From positions 6,412,501-6,476,500 of the forward strand of contig NZ_BCQA01000001.1 in assembly GCF_001748145.1 (NCBI RefSeq): a DNA stretch of 64,000 bases. The letters are read 5' to 3'. A program made the translations under genes and the position numbers. The stretch comes from Bosea sp. BIWAKO-01. GTDB lineage: Bacteria > Pseudomonadota > Alphaproteobacteria > Rhizobiales > Beijerinckiaceae. Under the pieces are notes generated by a model. That model was not told where the DNA came from. It ran no database searches and saw only the letters and a program-made list of their open reading frames with translations. Shown piece by piece: positions 4,163 through 10,912 of the stretch (positions within the stretch are counted from its first letter, which is position 1; each line of letters begins with the position of its first letter).

Positions 4163-4210
4163 GCATTAGTGCCTGTCGCCTCCCCGGCTCTACCCTGCCC
4201 GGATCCCGCC

Positions 4211-5074
4211 ATGCGCTATGTCCAGCTTCGTGCTTTCCACCAGGTCGCGCTCGCCGGCGGCTTTTCACGCGCCGCGAGCGAGCTGAACCTGACGCAGCCG
4301 GCGATCTCCGATCAGGTCCGCAAGCTCGAGGAGGAGTATGACGTGCTGCTGTTCAGCCGGCAGCACAGGCAGATCGCCCTGACCGCGATGGGCGAAAGGC
4401 TGCTCGCGATCACACACCGCCTGTTCGATGCCGAGGACCAGGCGCGCGGGTTGCTCTTGGAGTCGCGCGCCCTGCGGCTTGGAACCCTGCGGATCGCCGC
4501 CGATTCCGTCCATCATGTCCTGCATGTGCTGACGGCGTTCCGCGAGATCTATCCGGGCGTGCGGATCACGGTCAGCGCCGGCAATACCGAGACCATCGTG
4601 GCGCAGCTGCAAAGTTACGAGGCCGATATCGGCGTCCTCGGCGACATGGCCCCGCATCGCGATTTCGAGTTCGTTCCGCTGAATGCGGCGCCGATCATCG
4701 CCGTCGTCGCAGCCGATCATCCCTTTGCCTCGCGCCGGTCGCTGTCGCTGGCGGAGCTTGCCGGCATGGCGCTCGTGATCCGGGAAAGCGGCTCGCGGAC
4801 GCGCCGGCTGCTCGAACAGCGCGCGTCCGAGACCGGCGTCAGGTTGACCTACGCCATCGAGGTCGAAGGGCGCGAGGCTGCGCTCGACATCGTGGCGGCG
4901 GGTGGCGGCATCGGCTTCGTCTCGGAGGCCGAACTGCGCGGCGATCGCGGCCTGGTGCGCATCGCGCTCGACGGGCCGCCGATCCTGATGGAGGAATCCC
5001 TGATCTGCTTGAGCGAACGCCGGGACAACAAGGCGATCAAGGCCTTTCTGGACGTCGCACGGGGTCGCGCTTGA
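4211..5074 (+). CDS. LysR-family transcriptional regulator, aminoethylphosphonate-associated type
   Basis: A 287-residue regulator. The winged-helix domain lies at residues 1-60 (LRAFHQVALAGGFSRAASELNLTQPAISDQVRKLE), followed by a LysR substrate-binding domain. The opening MRYVQLRAFHQVA and the general sequence resemble, from memory, the LysR clade found beside 2-aminoethylphosphonate catabolic genes (TIGR03339). I chose ATG 4211 because the family begins exactly here; the upstream in-frame ATG at 4169 adds 14 proline-rich residues. It is divergent from the PLP enzyme-dehydrogenase operon, its likely target. The last 27 codons recur in degraded form at 10827-10912. Confidence 0.85.
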   Translation: MRYVQLRAFHQVALAGGFSRAASELNLTQPAISDQVRKLEEEYDVLLFSRQHRQIALTAMGERLLAITHRLFDAEDQARGLLLESRALRLGTLRIAADSVHHVLHVLTAFREIYPGVRITVSAGNTETIVAQLQSYEADIGVLGDMAPHRDFEFVPLNAAPIIAVVAADHPFASRRSLSLAELAGMALVIRESGSRTRRLLEQRASETGVRLTYAIEVEGREAALDIVAAGGGIGFVSEAELRGDRGLVRIALDGPPILMEESLICLSERRDNKAIKAFLDVARGRA

Positions 5075-5159
5075 CCAGGCTGGAGCTTCGCCCCCGGAGC
5101 GGCGCGGTCGGACCGCTCAATTGTCGGTCAGACCTTGCGCTTCGCGATGCTCGCCGAGA

Positions 5160-6575
5160 TCAGACCATGCCCGTGGCGAATCCGTAGAGCAGCCCAGCTA
5201 CCGAGCAAGCGGCGATGACCTTGATCATCCCGACCTTGAAGCGGAACACAGCGATCATGGCGGCAAGCGTCAGCAGCAGCGATGCGACGTTGACGGTGCT
5301 CAGGACCGGCACGTCGAGTTCCATGCCATAGCCGCGGATCTGATGGACCTCGGCGAAGAGCACGTGCAGCGCAAACCAGATCGACAGGTTCAGGATCACG
5401 CCGACGACGGCCGCAGTAATCGCCCCGAGCGCAGCCGAGAGCGCCTTGTTGTTGCGCATCGTCTCCATGAACGGCGCGCCGAGGAAGATCCAGAGGAAGC
5501 AGGGCACGAAAGTGACCCAGGTCGTCAGCAGCCCGCCGAGAGTGCCGGCCAGGAGGGGATTCAGAGAGCCCGGCGCACGATAGGCGCCCATGAAGCCGAC
5601 GAACTGCGTCACCATGATCAAGGGGCCGGGCGTGGTTTCGGCCATGCCGAGGCCATCCAGCATTTCACCCGGCTTCAGCCAGCCATAATGCTCGACTGCC
5701 TGCTGCGCGACATAGGACAGCACCGAGTAGGCGCCACCGAAGGTCACCATCGCCATCTTGGAGAAGAAGATTGAGATCTCCGTGAAGACGTTGCCCTGGC
5801 CGAGCAGAGCCAGCAGGGCGATGATTGGAGCGAACCAGAGGAAGAAGCCGATGGCAGCGACCTTCAGCGTCCAGCTCAGCGGCGGTCTGGCATGCGCCGG
5901 AATGCCCTCGCCCAGCGCGGAATCGATGTCGGCCAGCTGCTTGCCACCGAGCTTGCCATGACCGCCTCCCGTCAGGAACGCCGACCAGCCACCGCGCCCT
6001 CCGATATAGCCGATCAGGCCCGCGCCCAGCACGACGAGCGGGAATGGTGCCTGAAACAGCGTCAATGCCAGAAAGGCGGCGGCGGCGAGCCCGATCATGA
6101 CATTGTTCTTCAGCGAGCGCCGACCGATCCGCAGGACGGCTTCGAGCACGATCGCCAGGACCGCCGCCTTCAATCCGAAGAACAGAGCCTGGACGCTGCC
6201 GACATTGCCGAAAATCGCGTAGATCCAGCTCAGCGCCATGATGGAAATGGCGCCCGGCAGCACGAACAGGAGGCCGGCGACGAGACCGCCCTTCGTCTTG
6301 TGCAGGAGCCAGCCGATATAGATCGCGAGTTGCTGCGCCTCCGGCCCCGGAAGAAGGGTGCAATAGTTCAGGGCATGCAGGAAGCGCGTCTCGCCGATCC
6401 AGCGCTTCTCCTCAACGATGATCCGGTGCATCACCGCGATCTGTCCGGCAGGCCCACCGAAGCTCAGCGCTGCGACCCGTGCCCAGACACGCAAGGCCTC
6501 CCCGAATGAAATGCCGTGATCAGGCACGGCATTCTGCATCGTCGGTGCAGCGTCGATGGTTTCGAGCTTGTTCAT
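5160..6575 (-). CDS. chrA: Chromate efflux transporter ChrA (two-domain CHR family)
   Basis: A 471-residue polytopic inner-membrane protein with two homologous CHR halves. The N-half has LSFGGPAGQIAVMHR and LPGPEAQQLAIYIGW; the C-half has VTFGGAYSVLSYVAQQAV and TTPGPLIMVTQFVGFMGA. CHR proteins expel chromate from the cytoplasm. ATG 6575 is preferred to the upstream in-frame ATG because it follows a good ribosome-binding site (AGGAAA) and the extension is Ser/Thr-rich and unlike the family. It lies 16 nt downstream of chrB and is surely cotranscribed with it. Confidence 0.93.
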   Translation of the reverse strand: MNKLETIDAAPTMQNAVPDHGISFGEALRVWARVAALSFGGPAGQIAVMHRIIVEEKRWIGETRFLHALNYCTLLPGPEAQQLAIYIGWLLHKTKGGLVAGLLFVLPGAISIMALSWIYAIFGNVGSVQALFFGLKAAVLAIVLEAVLRIGRRSLKNNVMIGLAAAAFLALTLFQAPFPLVVLGAGLIGYIGGRGGWSAFLTGGGHGKLGGKQLADIDSALGEGIPAHARPPLSWTLKVAAIGFFLWFAPIIALLALLGQGNVFTEISIFFSKMAMVTFGGAYSVLSYVAQQAVEHYGWLKPGEMLDGLGMAETTPGPLIMVTQFVGFMGAYRAPGSLNPLLAGTLGGLLTTWVTFVPCFLWIFLGAPFMETMRNNKALSAALGAITAAVVGVILNLSIWFALHVLFAEVHQIRGYGMELDVPVLSTVNVASLLLTLAAMIAVFRFKVGMIKVIAACSVAGLLYGFATGMV

Positions 6576-6591
6576 GGCCGTTTCCTGATGA

Positions 6592-7584
6592 TCAGGCGCG
6601 TTTCGACTTGAAGTACTGGTAGAGGTTGTCGAGGACGGGCGTGCCTTGGGCGATGCGCTGCTCATCGTCCGGATTGGCCGCGCAGACACCCGCGATCAGG
6701 CTCGCGATGCCCGTCGTTTCCTCGTGCCCGAACTTGCGGTCTTTCAGATCGATGTCGTGGACGATCTCGGAGATGCCCCGGAGCGCAGGATCAGCGAGAC
6801 CGGCACGGACCAGCAGGACCTCGAAGCTACAACGATCACCCTCGTGGGTAATCTCGCCTTCGAACATGTCGAAGCGCAACTCCCCGGCCTTGGGTTCGTA
6901 TCCCTTGCCCGGAACGAAGCGGATGACGGCGTCGGGGTCGATGAAGCGACGGATCAGCCAGCTACAGGCGATGCGGTCGATATGGACGCCTTTGCGCGTG
7001 ACCCAGACCCGCCCCTTCAGGTCGGCTGCGGTCTGTGGCGGCGTCTCCGTTGATGTGTTGGTCATGTCGCTATCCCTCGCGAGCCTGCGCTCCAGTTCCG
7101 CGATCAGGCCCTCAGCCGAGAGACGGCCAGTCGCGCCGAAGAAATCGATGGCGGCGATGTCCGCCAGCCGCTTGCGCAGGCGCTTGATCTGGGTCGTGGC
7201 CTCGACCGTTTCCTCCGGAGCTGCAGCCTCCTCGAGGCGGCTTGAAAGGGAGCGGACCTCCTTGGCGATCGCCTCGTAGTCTTCGTCGCGCGCAGCGTCG
7301 AACAGGGCCCGTGCCTGGGCATCGGAAAGGCCATCGATCAGGCGGGCTTCGCACATCATGGCCTCCCCGCCTCCCTCGACGATCTCCTTCAGCAACCACT
7401 CGAAATCTTCCTGCGTCTCGGCATTCGCCGGCAGCGCATAGACCGTGCTCTTCACCGCGACAGCGCCGATGCCTTGCAGGCGGCGCCAGATCTTGACCCG
7501 GAAATAGGCTGGCTTGCTCGGCAACTGGTGGATCAGGAGGAGCCAGCGCTGCTCTGCCGGTATCGCGTCAACGTTCATGTTCAC
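6592..7584 (-). CDS. chrB: Chromate resistance regulator ChrB
   Basis: A 330-residue protein with the usual ChrB layout. The N-terminal domain (WLLLIHQLPSKPAYFRVKIWRRLQ... VYALP, about residues 10-180) is followed by the C-terminal chromate-resistance domain (WVTRKGVHIDRIACSWLIRRFIDPDA, from about residue 190) with H-x-D-R-x-A-C and E-G-E-I-T-H. In Ochrobactrum tritici and others ChrB is a chromate-responsive regulator of the chr operon. Here it leads chrB-chrA and faces the SOD-rhodanese gene across a 92-nt spacer with repeated GTATCAT motifs. The start could also be the second Met, two codons in. Confidence 0.88.
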   Translation of the reverse strand: MNMNVDAIPAEQRWLLLIHQLPSKPAYFRVKIWRRLQGIGAVAVKSTVYALPANAETQEDFEWLLKEIVEGGGEAMMCEARLIDGLSDAQARALFDAARDEDYEAIAKEVRSLSSRLEEAAAPEETVEATTQIKRLRKRLADIAAIDFFGATGRLSAEGLIAELERRLARDSDMTNTSTETPPQTAADLKGRVWVTRKGVHIDRIACSWLIRRFIDPDAVIRFVPGKGYEPKAGELRFDMFEGEITHEGDRCSFEVLLVRAGLADPALRGISEIVHDIDLKDRKFGHEETTGIASLIAGVCAANPDDEQRIAQGTPVLDNLYQYFKSKRA

Positions 7585-7587
7585 ACC

Positions 7588-7624
7588 GTATCATCAAGAC
7601 AAATAAAAGCAACACTTGTATCAT
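7588..7624. promoter_or_regulatory. Twin GTATCAT repeats in the divergent chrB / sod-rhodanese promoter
   Basis: GTATCAT occurs at 7588-7594 and 7618-7624, same orientation and exactly 30 bp apart, inside the 92-nt spacer between divergent genes. The second copy is part of an imperfect dyad, ATCA-4 nt-TGAT. These are candidate sites for ChrB or another regulator controlling both operons together. This is inference from position and repetition. Confidence 0.45.
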
Positions 7625-7676
7625 TTTTGATTCGAGCGTAGCGTCCGGCTCGTCGCGTATCGCAAGCGAGGACGCC

Positions 7677-8648
7677 ATGCACCGGATCATGCCATTGCCG
7701 TTCAAGCCGCCGCGCCTGGAAGGGCTCTCCGAGCGGCTTCTGGCGAGCCATTACGAGAACAATTACGGAGGCGCCGTGCGGCGCCTGAATGCAATCGAGC
7801 GCCGGCTCGATGAGCTCGACTGGAGCCAGGCTCCGGTGTTTGACCTCAACGGCTTGAAGCGTGAGGAGCTCATCGCCGCGAACTCGGCGATCCTGCACGA
7901 GATCTATTTCGATGGGCTGGGCGGCACAGGCGATGCCGCAGGCGACCTGGCCGCAGCGCTGGAACGCGATTTCGGCAGTGTCGCGGGCTGGCGAACGAAA
8001 TTCGCGGCCTGCGCGAAGGCGCAGGCCGGTGGATCGGGCTGGACCTTGCTGGTCTGGTCGGAGCGCCATCAGCGCCTGATGATCCAGTGGGGGCAAGATC
8101 ACACCAACTGCCTCGCCGGCAGCACCCCGATCATGGCGCTCGATATGTACGAGCACGCCTATCACATCGATTTCGGAGCGAAGGCTGGCGCCTATGTCGA
8201 TGCCTTCATGAGGAACATCCATTGGGAGCGGGTCGGCGCCCGCTTCCAGGGGCTGGCGAAGAGCAGGCATGCGATCGGCAAGGCCGAGGCCGCCGCCGCC
8301 GGAGCCGGTATCGCCGCCGAGGATCTCCTGGCGCGCATGCAGCGTCAGGACGATATCGTCCTCCTGGACGTCTGCCTCGCGGAAGATCTGGCCAAGCGCA
8401 GCGACATGATCCCAGGTGCACAGATCCGCGTCCCCGAGCGGATCGCCGACTGGGCCGAAGACCTGCCCGAGGGCAAGCCGATCGTCGCCTATTGCGTCTA
8501 TGGCTTCCAGGTCAGCGGCGATGCCGTCGCCGAGCTGCGCCGCCGCGGCCTCGACGCCTATTCGCTCGCAGGCGGAATAGCCGCCTGGCACGCGATCGGC
8601 GCGCCAACCGTTCCACTCACCAGCGCTGAAGGGAGACCAACGCCATGA
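7677..8648 (+). CDS. Fe/Mn superoxide dismutase-rhodanese fusion protein (ChrC-like)
   Basis: A 323-residue fusion. Residues 1-195 are a superoxide dismutase with all four metal ligands visible: H25 (SHYENNYGG), H74 (ILHEIYFDGLGG), D156 and H160 (LDMYEHAYHIDFG). Residues 210-310 are a single rhodanese domain with LLDVC... and the loop YCVYGFQVSG, whose cysteine C273 is the sulfur-carrying candidate. No signal peptide is seen, so it acts in the cytoplasm. In O. tritici the chr operon includes a dismutase, ChrC, which answers oxidative stress from chromate reduction. The added rhodanese suggests sulfur transfer or redox repair coupled to this. It overlaps the next gene by 4 nt. Confidence 0.88.
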   Translation: MHRIMPLPFKPPRLEGLSERLLASHYENNYGGAVRRLNAIERRLDELDWSQAPVFDLNGLKREELIAANSAILHEIYFDGLGGTGDAAGDLAAALERDFGSVAGWRTKFAACAKAQAGGSGWTLLVWSERHQRLMIQWGQDHTNCLAGSTPIMALDMYEHAYHIDFGAKAGAYVDAFMRNIHWERVGARFQGLAKSRHAIGKAEAAAAGAGIAAEDLLARMQRQDDIVLLDVCLAEDLAKRSDMIPGAQIRVPERIADWAEDLPEGKPIVAYCVYGFQVSGDAVAELRRRGLDAYSLAGGIAAWHAIGAPTVPLTSAEGRPTP

Positions 8649-9115
8649 AATGGATCACACGCGAGCGCCCCGTCATCGATCGGATCGCCTGTCCCTGGCT
8701 GATCACGCGCTTCATCGACAAGGAGCCGGAATTCCTGTTCGTGCCACCGGACCAGGTCAGGCAGGTCGCCGACGAAACCGGCGCCATCCCCTACGATGTC
8801 CCAGGGGTCGAATACACGCATTTCGGCGAGGGATGCAGCTTCGACGCCTTTGTCGAAAAGCACGACCTGGCCAAGGACCCGGCCATCGCAGCGATCGCCG
8901 CCATCGTCCGCGGCGCCGATACCGACCGACACGACCTGACACCGCAATCAGCCGGGTTGCTGGCGATCTCGATGGGACTTCGCGACCTCTCCCCGGACGA
9001 CCATGAGGTCCTGAAGCGCGGCTTCATCATCTATGACGCGCTCTATGCCTGGGCATCCCGCCGGACGGGCGAAACCCATAGCTGGCCGCCGTCGATGAGG
9101 GCGACCGCCGCCTGA
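8645..9115 (+). CDS. Stand-alone ChrB C-terminal-domain protein
   Basis: A 156-residue protein equivalent to the C-terminal half of ChrB alone. WITRERPVIDRIACPWLITRFIDKEPEFLFVP aligns with the matching block in chrB at 6592-7584, and the downstream EYTHFGEGCSFD and DLTPQSAGLLAISMGL are also shared. It lacks the N-terminal ChrB domain, so it is probably not a DNA-binding regulator. The conserved H, D and C residues suggest a metal- or thiol-dependent role, which is inference. ATGA overlap with the SOD-rhodanese gene shows tight coupling to an antioxidant function. Confidence 0.82.
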   Translation: MKWITRERPVIDRIACPWLITRFIDKEPEFLFVPPDQVRQVADETGAIPYDVPGVEYTHFGEGCSFDAFVEKHDLAKDPAIAAIAAIVRGADTDRHDLTPQSAGLLAISMGLRDLSPDDHEVLKRGFIIYDALYAWASRRTGETHSWPPSMRATAA

Positions 9116-9145
9116 CGCCCATTGCTCCGGCATGGGAGAAAGCCC

Positions 9146-9280
9146 ATGAACCGGCCCGTAACGATCGCATTGGCAATCGTCCTGGCCAGCCTGATCGTTT
9201 CGCCGCCGCAGACCATCGGTCGGCGGTTGGATGAGGCAATCAGAAACTCTCGGAAAGTCATCGACCCAATGCCGGGGTGA
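9146..9280 (+). CDS. Possible 44-residue membrane or secreted peptide
   Basis: A short open frame starts at ATG 9146 after GGGAGAAA. It encodes a hydrophobic N-terminus (TIALAIVLASLIVS) and a basic/acidic tail ending DPMPG. It fills the space between the ChrB-domain gene and the ATP-grasp gene, ends 4 nt before the latter's ATG, and has the same strand and spacing as an operon member. I do not recognise the family; it could be a translational leader. Confidence 0.4.
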   Translation: MNRPVTIALAIVLASLIVSPPQTIGRRLDEAIRNSRKVIDPMPG

Positions 9281-9284
9281 GATC

Positions 9285-10349
9285 ATGTCGACCGCAGTGC
9301 AGAAGGTAGCCGTGGTTTGGCGAGGTGATCGCGAAGCGCGACGCACCGCAACAGCGCAGAACAATCGCTTTCATCGCGTATTCGAGGAGCTGAGCGCGAT
9401 CGGCTTCGACGCCGAGCCGGCCGTCTACGACGAGACGTTCGGCGAAGACGTCCGCGATCAGCTCCTGGCTGCGGACGGGGTCCTTGTCTGGGTCGATCCG
9501 CTGCACGCGGGCAAGACACGGCATCAGCTCGACGCATTGCTGCGGGATGTCGCGGCGCGCGGGCCCTGGGTCAGCGCCCACCCCGACACCATCCTCAAGA
9601 TGGGGGTGAAGGAGGTTCTGTACCGCACGAAACATCTTGGATGGGGCGCCGATACGCATCTCTATCGATCGGCGGCCTCTTTCCGGGCGGAGTTCCCGGC
9701 GCGCTTGAGGGCGGCTGGTCGGCGCGTGCTGAAGCAGAACCGCGGCAATGGCGGCCAAGGCGTCTGGAAGGTCGAGCAGCTCAGCCGGTCGACCGGTCCC
9801 GAGATAGTGCAGGTGCTGCACGCACAGAAAGGGAGCATCCCGGAAGAACTCGCCCTGTCGGACTTCATGGCAAGGTGCGAAGCCTATTTCGCGGCCGACG
9901 GCTGCATCATCGATCAGCCGTTCCAGCCTCGTCTGCCGGAGGGCATGATCCGCTGCTACATGGGCGCAGACAAGGTTGTCGGCTACGGGCACCAACTCAT
10001 CAAGGCACTCGTCCCTCCCCCTCCCGAAGGCCCGGATTCGGAGGCTGCGCAACCCGGCCCACGGATCATGCATGGCGCGTCCGCCGAGCCGTTTCAGAGG
10101 CTCAGGGCAAAGATGGAGGATGAATGGACGCCTCAGATGATGGCGCTCTTGGGAATCGACGCGGCCTCCTTGCCCATCATCTGGGACGCGGATTTCCTCT
10201 ATGGCCCGCGCACGGCATCGGGCGACGACACATATGTGCTCTGCGAGATCAATGTCAGCTCGGTCTTCGCCATTCCGGATCAGGCGCCGGCCGCCATTGC
10301 AAGACTTGTCGCCTCGCGCTTGAGGCATGGCAGTTCGCCGCGTTCGTAG
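9285..10349 (+). CDS. ATP-grasp-like protein of unknown function (Cj0069-like)
   Basis: A 354-residue cytoplasmic protein. The N-terminal third (VAVVWRGDREARRTA... FEELSAIGFDAEPAVYDE... LVWVDPLHAGKTR) looks like a pre-ATP-grasp domain. The middle, RRVLKQNRGNGGQGVWKVE, has the Lys and Gly-rich loop of an ATP-grasp fold; near the C-terminus IIWDADFLYGP and CEINVSSVFAI supply the acidic/Asn residues expected for Mg-ATP binding. The family resembles what databases call Cj0069; its substrate is not known to me. ATG 9285 follows GGGGTGAG; an upstream in-frame ATG (9231) would overlap the small peptide gene. It closes the sod-rhodanese operon, hinting at ligation of a small thiol, peptide or acid in chromate or oxidative defence. 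Confidence 0.65.
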   Translation: MSTAVQKVAVVWRGDREARRTATAQNNRFHRVFEELSAIGFDAEPAVYDETFGEDVRDQLLAADGVLVWVDPLHAGKTRHQLDALLRDVAARGPWVSAHPDTILKMGVKEVLYRTKHLGWGADTHLYRSAASFRAEFPARLRAAGRRVLKQNRGNGGQGVWKVEQLSRSTGPEIVQVLHAQKGSIPEELALSDFMARCEAYFAADGCIIDQPFQPRLPEGMIRCYMGADKVVGYGHQLIKALVPPPPEGPDSEAAQPGPRIMHGASAEPFQRLRAKMEDEWTPQMMALLGIDAASLPIIWDADFLYGPRTASGDDTYVLCEINVSSVFAIPDQAPAAIARLVASRLRHGSSPRS

Positions 10350-10455
10350 ATATCGCGCACCGCGGGCGCCGATACGAGGAACGGCGCCAGCAGTTCGGTT
10401 GGCCAGGACGTCGCGCATGTTCGTCCGAAGTCGGTTCCAACGAGCCATGGAGCGG

Positions 10456-10484
10456 CGCACTCGGCGCAGCCTGAGCCGAGTGCG
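10456..10484 (+). terminator. Stem-loop after the chromate-locus operon
   Basis: Perfect 10-bp arms CGCACTCGGC (10456-10465) and GCCGAGTGCG (10475-10484) enclose a 9-nt loop, about 107 nt past the ATP-grasp gene stop. There is no T run, so it may end transcription with Rho or protect the 3' end. Confidence 0.4.
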
Positions 10485-10826
10485 ATCCTGGGGCCGAAGC
10501 CGCATCGAGCCGTGGCCCTGACATAGTGGTCTTATCGAGGTGAACGCCTCAAGGAGCCAGGAGTGATCCCATGCGCCCGCTTGCGACTCTGCCGCTCATC
10601 GCCTTGATCGGATTGCTTGGGAACCGCGCTCTTTGTTCCGGAGCTGGACCTGCTCTTTGTAGCCGCGCCGGCAGGACGGCTCGGGTCGGGCGCCGCAGTT
10701 CTGGTATTCCGGCCAATGCCGTGAGGGGCCCAGCCGTAGAGGCGCCCCCCGACAACGGATTAGAGCCGCCGGCTCACCGCAGGAGCGGCCACGCTCCCAG
10801 CGCGATGATCGCCAGGGGAGGCCCCC

Positions 10827-10912
10827 CTGATCTGCCTGAGCGAACCCCGGGACAACAAGGCGATCAAGGCCTTTCTGGACGTCGCACGAGATCTTTCTTG
10901 ATCAGGCTGGAC
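10827..10912 (+). pseudogene. 3'-end fragment of a LysR gene
   Basis: The stretch encodes LICLSEPRDNKAIKAFLDVA followed by RDLS and a stop. It matches the C-terminus of the LysR gene at 4211-5074 (LICLSERRDNKAIKAFLDVA then RGRA) almost base for base, including part of the sequence after the stop (TTGATCAGGCTGG versus TTGACCAGGCTGG). Nothing upstream keeps the frame. It is either a partial duplication of the local lysR or the last trace of a deleted paralogue. Confidence 0.7.

Follow-up and report, generated by a model that had tools for sequence, protein, structure and literature searches.

A chr locus of Bosea sp. BIWAKO-01 with a Cj0069-family protein as a probable accessory ligase of chromate resistance

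A stretch of 64,000 nucleotides from Bosea sp. BIWAKO-01 (contig NZ_BCQA01000001.1, positions 6,412,501 to 6,476,500), hereafter called the window, contains at positions 5160–10349 a ChrB-type chromate resistance (chr) cluster, in which chrB and chrA diverge from chrCE, chrF, a 44-codon open reading frame (ORF) and a gene of the Cj0069 family. The genes chrB, A, C, E and F are known parts of chr systems, and the Cj0069 gene is the unusual part. The locus probably represents a pair of chr operons with an optional accessory ATP-grasp ligase of chromate resistance. The positions and order of the ORFs, a 4-nt overlap and the short spacers are all as described in an earlier reading of the DNA letters, here called the original prediction.

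Organization of the locus and the Cj0069 protein

On the minus strand, chrA (5160–6575) codes for a CHR-family chromate efflux transporter of 471 amino acids with two halves (Pfam Chromate_transp, E 4.1e-72; TIGR00937 over its cut-off). It is adjoined by chrB (6592–7578), coding for a chromate-responsive regulator of 328 amino acids with both the N-terminal and the C-terminal domain (Pfam ChrB_N, E 2e-15; ChrB_C, E 2e-45) and 30 % identity with ChrB1 of plasmid pMOL28 from Cupriavidus metallidurans CH34. The first gene on the plus strand (7677–8648) encodes a ChrC-ChrE fusion of 323 amino acids, consisting of a Fe/Mn superoxide dismutase (SOD) and a rhodanese (Sod_Fe_C, E 5e-25; Rhodanese, E 4e-7). 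The SOD part has 62.6 % identity with pMOL28 ChrC and the rhodanese part 38 % with ChrE, and the protein is under the cut-off of every NCBIfam model that it matched. The fusion recurs in seven fetched loci (L014 and L126 being from one genome) and was found in one open frame in loci of Afipia, Mesorhizobium, Bosea, Belnapia and Dankookia. The chrCE gene overlaps by 4 nt (8645–8648) with chrF (8645–9115, plus strand), which encodes a stand-alone ChrB_C domain protein of 156 amino acids (Pfam ChrB_C, E 7.1e-48; 65 % identity over 138 amino acids with pMOL28 ChrF1). The 44-codon ORF (9146–9280, plus strand), with a hydrophobic N-terminus, starts 30 nt after the chrF stop codon and is followed after 4 nt by the gene for the chr-type Cj0069-family (DUF6815) protein of 354 amino acids (9285–10349, plus strand). 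The 7.3-Mb genome contains two ChrB_C matches, both at the chr locus, ChrA-type matches at two places besides it, and one Cj0069 match, the window copy.

Profile matches were far beyond chance for five of the six ORFs, the exception being the 44-codon ORF, so that the gene content given in the original prediction was confirmed except for its 44-residue peptide. The same prediction had called the locus extended, which is true of the added Cj0069 gene; the SOD-rhodanese and the ChrB-domain protein are the known ChrC-ChrE fusion and ChrF. Since the 44-codon ORF matches only itself and codes poorly, and the rest is a known operon, the Cj0069 gene is left as the unusual part. In a search of approximately 5.8 billion proteins the sole match of the 44-codon ORF was itself, and its coding score was 0.03 per codon, compared with 0.05–0.58 for segments of 135 nt from the six genes at 4169–10349, which were among the eleven window genes used to train the score table. 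Among the fetched loci its best match, to the end of a chrF gene, was unconvincing (E 0.002). It had no match of note to chrN or chrO of pMOL28, which were rejected as its origin. Its ribosome-binding site is fair as judged by eye and it could therefore be translated; it is probably not a conserved gene. The idea of a peptide partner was dropped as unsupported, the ORF having no homologue, a weak coding signal and no chrN or chrO match, and the peptide did not hold up as an operon member.

The window Cj0069 protein matched the NF033816 profile (Cj0069_fam) with 382 bits (E 1.6e-114, cut-off 150) over profile positions 1–333 of 334, as well as Pfam DUF6815. The family consists of at least 7,995 proteins (E ≤ 1e-3 with one query, among 7,997 candidates scored). 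By sequence, no ATP-grasp profile matched the window protein, a search of PDB sequences gave no match to an ATP-grasp protein, and the GSH-S_ATP profile matched four of ten family members weakly (best E 0.0042). The AlphaFold2 model (predicted local distance difference test score, pLDDT, 92.6) has the appearance of a complete ATP-grasp enzyme, its best structural matches being DcsG and glutathione synthetase. The predicted fold is shared over 253–278 residues with GshB, RimK and DcsG at an identity of 14–18 % in the structural rows, and profile comparisons with E. coli GshB and RimK were not significant. An ATP-grasp fold is thus predicted with high confidence, and the model bears out the label given in the original prediction. 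A glutathione synthetase proper was considered and found unsupported by sequence (hhalign against E. coli GshB, probability 0.4 %, E 0.14). Two lysines, a glycine-rich loop, an arginine and Asp/Glu/Asn residues are invariant in ten family members and in 54 closer members; we take them to bind ATP and magnesium, the roles being assigned from the GshB pattern and not by residue-by-residue superposition. Catalysis and the kind of product we infer, and the protein may, as had been proposed from the DNA, ligate a thiol or peptide.

Association of Cj0069 genes with chr genes

A recurring linkage of Cj0069 with ChrB, ChrA or SOD genes, on which the original prediction had made its functional link depend, was found across many genera and on plasmids, most evenly drawn copies being unlinked. 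Linkage is thus common, yet not the rule. Among the named relatives (the best 80 of 105 confirmed, picked by similarity, with chr proteins mapped by profiles built for the purpose), 32 loci had ChrA, ChrB, ChrF, SOD or rhodanese genes within 5 kb of Cj0069; 30 of these had ChrA or ChrB-type genes and two had SOD alone. A DUF1259 (ChrY-like) gene was beside Cj0069 in 16 of the 80 loci and a YncE-type propeller (ChrZ-like) gene in 13, two of which, L011 and L068, had supplied the query genes; when both are added, 45 of the 80 loci are linked. Within 3 kb, chr or SOD genes occurred in 25 of the 64 loci with 3 kb or more of sequence to either side. The linked genera include Rhizobium, Agrobacterium, Mesorhizobium, Afipia, Bosea, Bradyrhizobium, Belnapia, Dankookia, Siccirubricoccus, Burkholderia, Paraburkholderia, Caballeronia and Paenibacillus, among others. 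Gene prediction from GC bias and all-against-all clustering of neighbours were noisy (shadow frames) and were used only for choosing Pfam neighbours and for rough counts. Unlinked Bradyrhizobium genes (L045, L059, L032, L080 and L084, around position 10001 of each) had metal-related neighbours, namely genes for ArsC-type and DUF1259 proteins, a NicO exporter, a CsoR/RcnR-type repressor and UPF0014 together with an ATP-binding cassette (ABC) ATPase.

Within 146 genomes of one genus (g7), Cj0069 was found over the cut-off in 73 and ChrB_C in 144. At least 16 of the 89 Cj0069 places, three incomplete copies included, were within 5 kb of a ChrB_C place as matched by eye, two more places at 10–11 kb being uncounted, whereas approximately 0.14 would be expected from the density of ChrB_C (about 165 places, genomes being taken as 8.1 Mb on average; kinship inflates the significance). 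Presence/absence co-occurrence inside the genus was rejected as a measure, having no power when ChrB_C is present in 144 of 146 genomes. In a sample drawn from the order, ChrB_C was present in all 15 genomes with Cj0069 over the cut-off, compared with 114 of 397 (hypergeometric p 4e-9); a 16th genome (G452), with Cj0069 under the cut-off and no ChrB_C, is outside the 15.

Cj0069 was matched in 29 of 72,556 plasmid records and the window ChrF in 465. At least 21 of the 29 had chr genes within approximately 6 kb, eight regions having been inspected directly and the rest judged by coordinates or annotation among 20 of 33 and 60 of 465 records listed. Record H7 was counted via an SOD gene 1.2 kb away and a piece of ChrA; H4, H6, H16, H25 (chrA about 19 kb off) and H26–H29 (short pieces) were not counted as linked. 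On a plasmid of Pannonibacter phragmitetus BB, a strain from soil under a chromium-containing slag heap, a Cj0069 copy lies approximately 4.4 kb from a gene for a ChrB-domain protein.

The gene order varies among linked loci. Cj0069 follows chrA in Rhizobium and Agrobacterium, with a 4-nt overlap on the Agrobacterium plasmid pTiKerr27 as annotated, and follows SOD in Caballeronia and Sphingobium. It precedes chrB in Bosea LC85, follows chrF in the window, diverges from chrB in L096 and in Paenibacillus follows genes for ChrB_N-like, ChrB_C and APH-type kinase proteins. In a quick tree of 105 proteins (Shimodaira-Hasegawa-like approximate likelihood ratio test, SH-aLRT, support only; L126 left out), 42 were labelled chr-linked, 49 unlinked and 14 were unlabelled (their flanks, shorter than 3 kb, containing no chr gene), L077 being represented by one part of its frame-split gene. 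The chr-linked label requires at least 15 changes on this tree, 11 of them forced by starred branches, and the linkage therefore does not derive from a single event. Changing order with kept company is what would be expected of a functional partner, but mobile islands could also yield it.

Additional arrangements were observed in individual loci. The Paenibacillus cremeus unit (L088:7333–11041) combines a flavodoxin-fold reductase, a split ChrB with its N- and C-terminal parts in separate genes, an APH-type phosphotransferase and Cj0069, and an APH-type gene also adjoins Cj0069 in L089. In Mesorhizobium neociceri (L077:9995–11033) the Cj0069 gene, adjacent to chrB-chrA, is divided between two frames, and may be decaying or mis-sequenced.

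Promoter region and surroundings of the cluster

The sole sigma-70-like promoter within 7500–10600 was found at 7596–7624 on the plus strand (9 of 12 matches, 0.5 expected by shuffles). A candidate ChrB operator core, CACTTGTATCAT, at 7613–7624 (plus strand) overlaps its -10-like hexamer TATCAT (7619–7624) and has an exact match once in the 64 kb. The 10-mer CACTTGTATC was present with at most one mismatch in all eight chr divergent regions compared, GCAACACTTGTATCATT occurs in the divergent region between chrB and chrC in the window, Afipia and Mesorhizobium, and three Roseomonadaceae have the variant GATAC(G/A)CTTGTATC. In L014 the operator-like motif, and in L015 a close variant, lies between chrC and Cj0069-chrB-chrA, with Cj0069 as the first gene behind it. 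Among loci whose upstream sequence was 250 nt or longer, L014, L015 and L126 scored 26–31, similar to the known sites, followed by L133 with 13.2; the 99th percentile of the background was 11.9. No second operator-like motif was seen before Cj0069 in the window, and the gene would thus depend on the chrCE promoter. ChrB would bind at the candidate operator, chrCE, chrF and Cj0069 would be expressed as one transcript, and Cj0069 is probably under ChrB control.

The island immediately follows a LysR gene. Of the NCBIfam models this gene matched TIGR03339 (aminoethylphosphonate-associated regulator) best, with a score just under the cut-off (323 compared with 341 bits). A direct repeat of 95 nt, 88 % identical, brackets the chr cluster, one copy being the 3' end of the LysR gene (4990–5084) and the other at 10817–10911, suggesting insertion by recombination or an integration which duplicated the gene end. 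Six of the 15 fetched same-genus loci that had a long LysR match were compared; five of the six kept the aminotransferase-LysR pair, and in all six the window side beyond 10911 was unmatched within the approximately 1.5 kb fetched. A relic of approximately 33 C-terminal codons of a YncE-type (ChrZ-like) beta-propeller gene is found at 10623–10721 on the plus strand (tblastx against the propeller gene of L011, 79 % over 33 amino acids, E 7e-11), in a frame different from that of the ATG at 10571. The L011 propeller gene is directly upstream of its Cj0069; the window relic is just downstream of the window copy. The locus looks to have been assembled through insertion and decay. Between the Cj0069 gene and the relic, a G+C-rich stem of 10 bp without a T run (10456–10484), the folding energy of which is not unusual (z -0.46), could be a transcription end.

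Known chr systems and the possible role of the Cj0069 protein

The chr operon of pMOL28, ordered chrI, then chrB1 A1 C E F1 and further genes, has counterparts of chrB, A, C, E and F as does the window. It differs in having separate chrC and chrE, which are fused in the window, in lacking the divergence of chrB-chrA from chrCE-chrF and in lacking a Cj0069 gene. According to PMC2864759, chromate induces its five downstream genes chrO, N, P, Y and Z; neither these, with Y and Z taken as intact genes, nor chrI were seen in the window. Genes similar to chrY (DUF1259) and chrZ (YncE-type) are found near many Cj0069 genes, the window keeping its propeller relic and pMOL28 having both. The transposon TnOtChr of Ochrobactrum tritici 5bvl1 (chrBACF) is similar to the window in chrB, A, C and F. 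ChrB binds its promoter, and an imperfect inverted repeat overlaps the -10 element there, much like the candidate operator of the window (PMC3817168). ChrB reportedly still bound a mutated repeat, and the same paper describes TnOtChr with chrB, A, C and F alone and quotes a repeat differing by eye from the window motif. In Arthrobacter sp. FB24 the uncharacterised accessory genes chrJ, chrK and chrL raise chromate resistance, chrL being a relative of Rmet_6195 (chrY/DUF1259), a frequent neighbour of Cj0069 (PMC2751784); the text of that paper lacks the words ATP-grasp, ligase and glutathione.

The Cj0069 family of Suttonella, Campylobacter and others includes the window protein by the curated cut-off, the distant members being only 26–29 % identical to it (four aligned) and separated by a very long branch. 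Cj0069 appears with values of -0.63 and -0.60 as a hypothetical protein in a proteome table (PMC4004267), in a secretion screen (PMC2764114) and among human-associated variants, where adhesion and biofilm are noted for it (PMC5841378); the portions of these three sources that mention it give no biochemical function and do not concern chromate. In searches of open-licence literature, no paper was found using the terms 'Cj0069 family protein' or 'DUF6815' and none linking, in the passages seen, an ATP-grasp protein to chr genes, although an account elsewhere is possible.

Chromate is reduced intracellularly by thiols and flavoenzymes, giving rise to reactive oxygen and reactive chromium species. 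In the proposed explanation, ChrB would control the divergent promoter at approximately 7580–7676, chromate inducing chrB-chrA (efflux) in one direction and chrCE-chrF-Cj0069 in the other. ChrC would remove superoxide, ChrE would be a sulfurtransferase and ChrF a second ChrB-domain protein, and the Cj0069 ligase would activate a carboxylate with ATP and join it to an amine or thiol. It would thereby make or repair a small molecule, or tag a protein, needed during intracellular chromate reduction; the small molecule might be a thiol or peptide that is restored after being spent in the reduction, or one that binds chromium. The presence of SOD, a sulfurtransferase and an exporter in the operon fits the chemistry of chromate reduction. 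A small-molecule product is a tentative guess, favoured because no recurring protein or peptide partner was seen, the small ORFs of the relatives not having been searched systematically. The narrower proposal, that a large DUF6815/Cj0069 branch is a dedicated ChrB-controlled chromate-defence ligase which makes or regenerates a peptide or thiol, or modifies a chr protein, in handling the products of chromium reduction, is possible but speculative.

Several observations weigh against an accessory ligase of chromate resistance. Well-studied chr operons lack Cj0069, and pMOL28 and two Rhizobium bangladeshense plasmids have chr genes without it, so it is dispensable; three distant Cj0069 genomes (one of them 71 % complete) gave no ChrA match. 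As the 80 relatives had been chosen by similarity, an even draw of 17 loci was added from genomes over the cut-off in overlapping samples (8 of 398 for the phylum and 15 of 397 for the order), leaving out the window genome, which is in both, and including L126 and L117 (identical to L042); only three of the 17 had chr or SOD genes within 5 kb, or four when DUF1259 is counted as well. The co-occurrence with ChrB_C is confounded by kinship, becoming 6 of 6 compared with 60 of 141 when counted by genus (p 0.005) and 5 of 5 compared with 8 of 12 within g231 (p 0.07). Only L014, L015 and L126 carry the motif immediately before Cj0069; it is lacking at this place in other linked copies (e.g. L096) and in unlinked copies. 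L014 has by eye a second similar stretch between Cj0069 and chrB, which may give chrB a promoter of its own. The codon scores of the window Cj0069 are below those of the chr genes, and it may have arrived separately, perhaps from another source.

These scores, together with the 88 % LysR-end copy flanking the island, are consistent with Cj0069 having another function and merely sharing metal-resistance islands, plasmids and Tn3-type transposons with chr genes. Linked plasmid copies are found near Tn3 transposases, recombinases and mer genes, one plasmid has a Tn3 transposase between ChrB_C and Cj0069, and many copies are unlinked. We nevertheless regard such passive co-transfer as unlikely, since Cj0069 forms part of a transcription unit, either behind the operator-like motif and before chrB (L014 and L015) or 4 nt into chrA, and occurs in several gene orders from several separate linkage events. 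A doubtful but possible alternative is a ligase for general metal or oxyanion stress, for which chromate is merely the commonest context. Unlinked loci have NicO nickel exporters, CsoR/RcnR-type repressors, ArsC, UPF0014 with an ABC ATPase and TauE as neighbours, DUF1259 recurs beside Cj0069 as well, and in serpentine-soil Mesorhizobium ChrA-like and ChrC-like genes were associated with nickel tolerance (PMC5315480). However, each such neighbour group was found in at most 11 of 105 loci, more rarely than chr genes, and DUF1259 itself is a chr accessory gene (chrL/chrY; PMC2751784). An enzyme similar to RimK, adding residues to the end of a protein, e.g. a chr or ribosomal protein, rather than making a small molecule, would agree with the shared fold. 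It appears quite improbable, as no carrier protein or conserved peptide partner was seen to recur, within the limits of the small-ORF search mentioned above, and the 44-codon ORF matched itself alone.

The linkage with chr genes gives a testable role to a family of thousands of members. If the reading as a dedicated ligase is true, a biosynthetic step would join efflux, superoxide removal and regulation, by which the resistance has been explained until now. Should the enzyme form a product, the chemistry of chromate resistance would extend beyond efflux and superoxide removal, and it may be of use in bioremediation strains such as P. phragmitetus BB.

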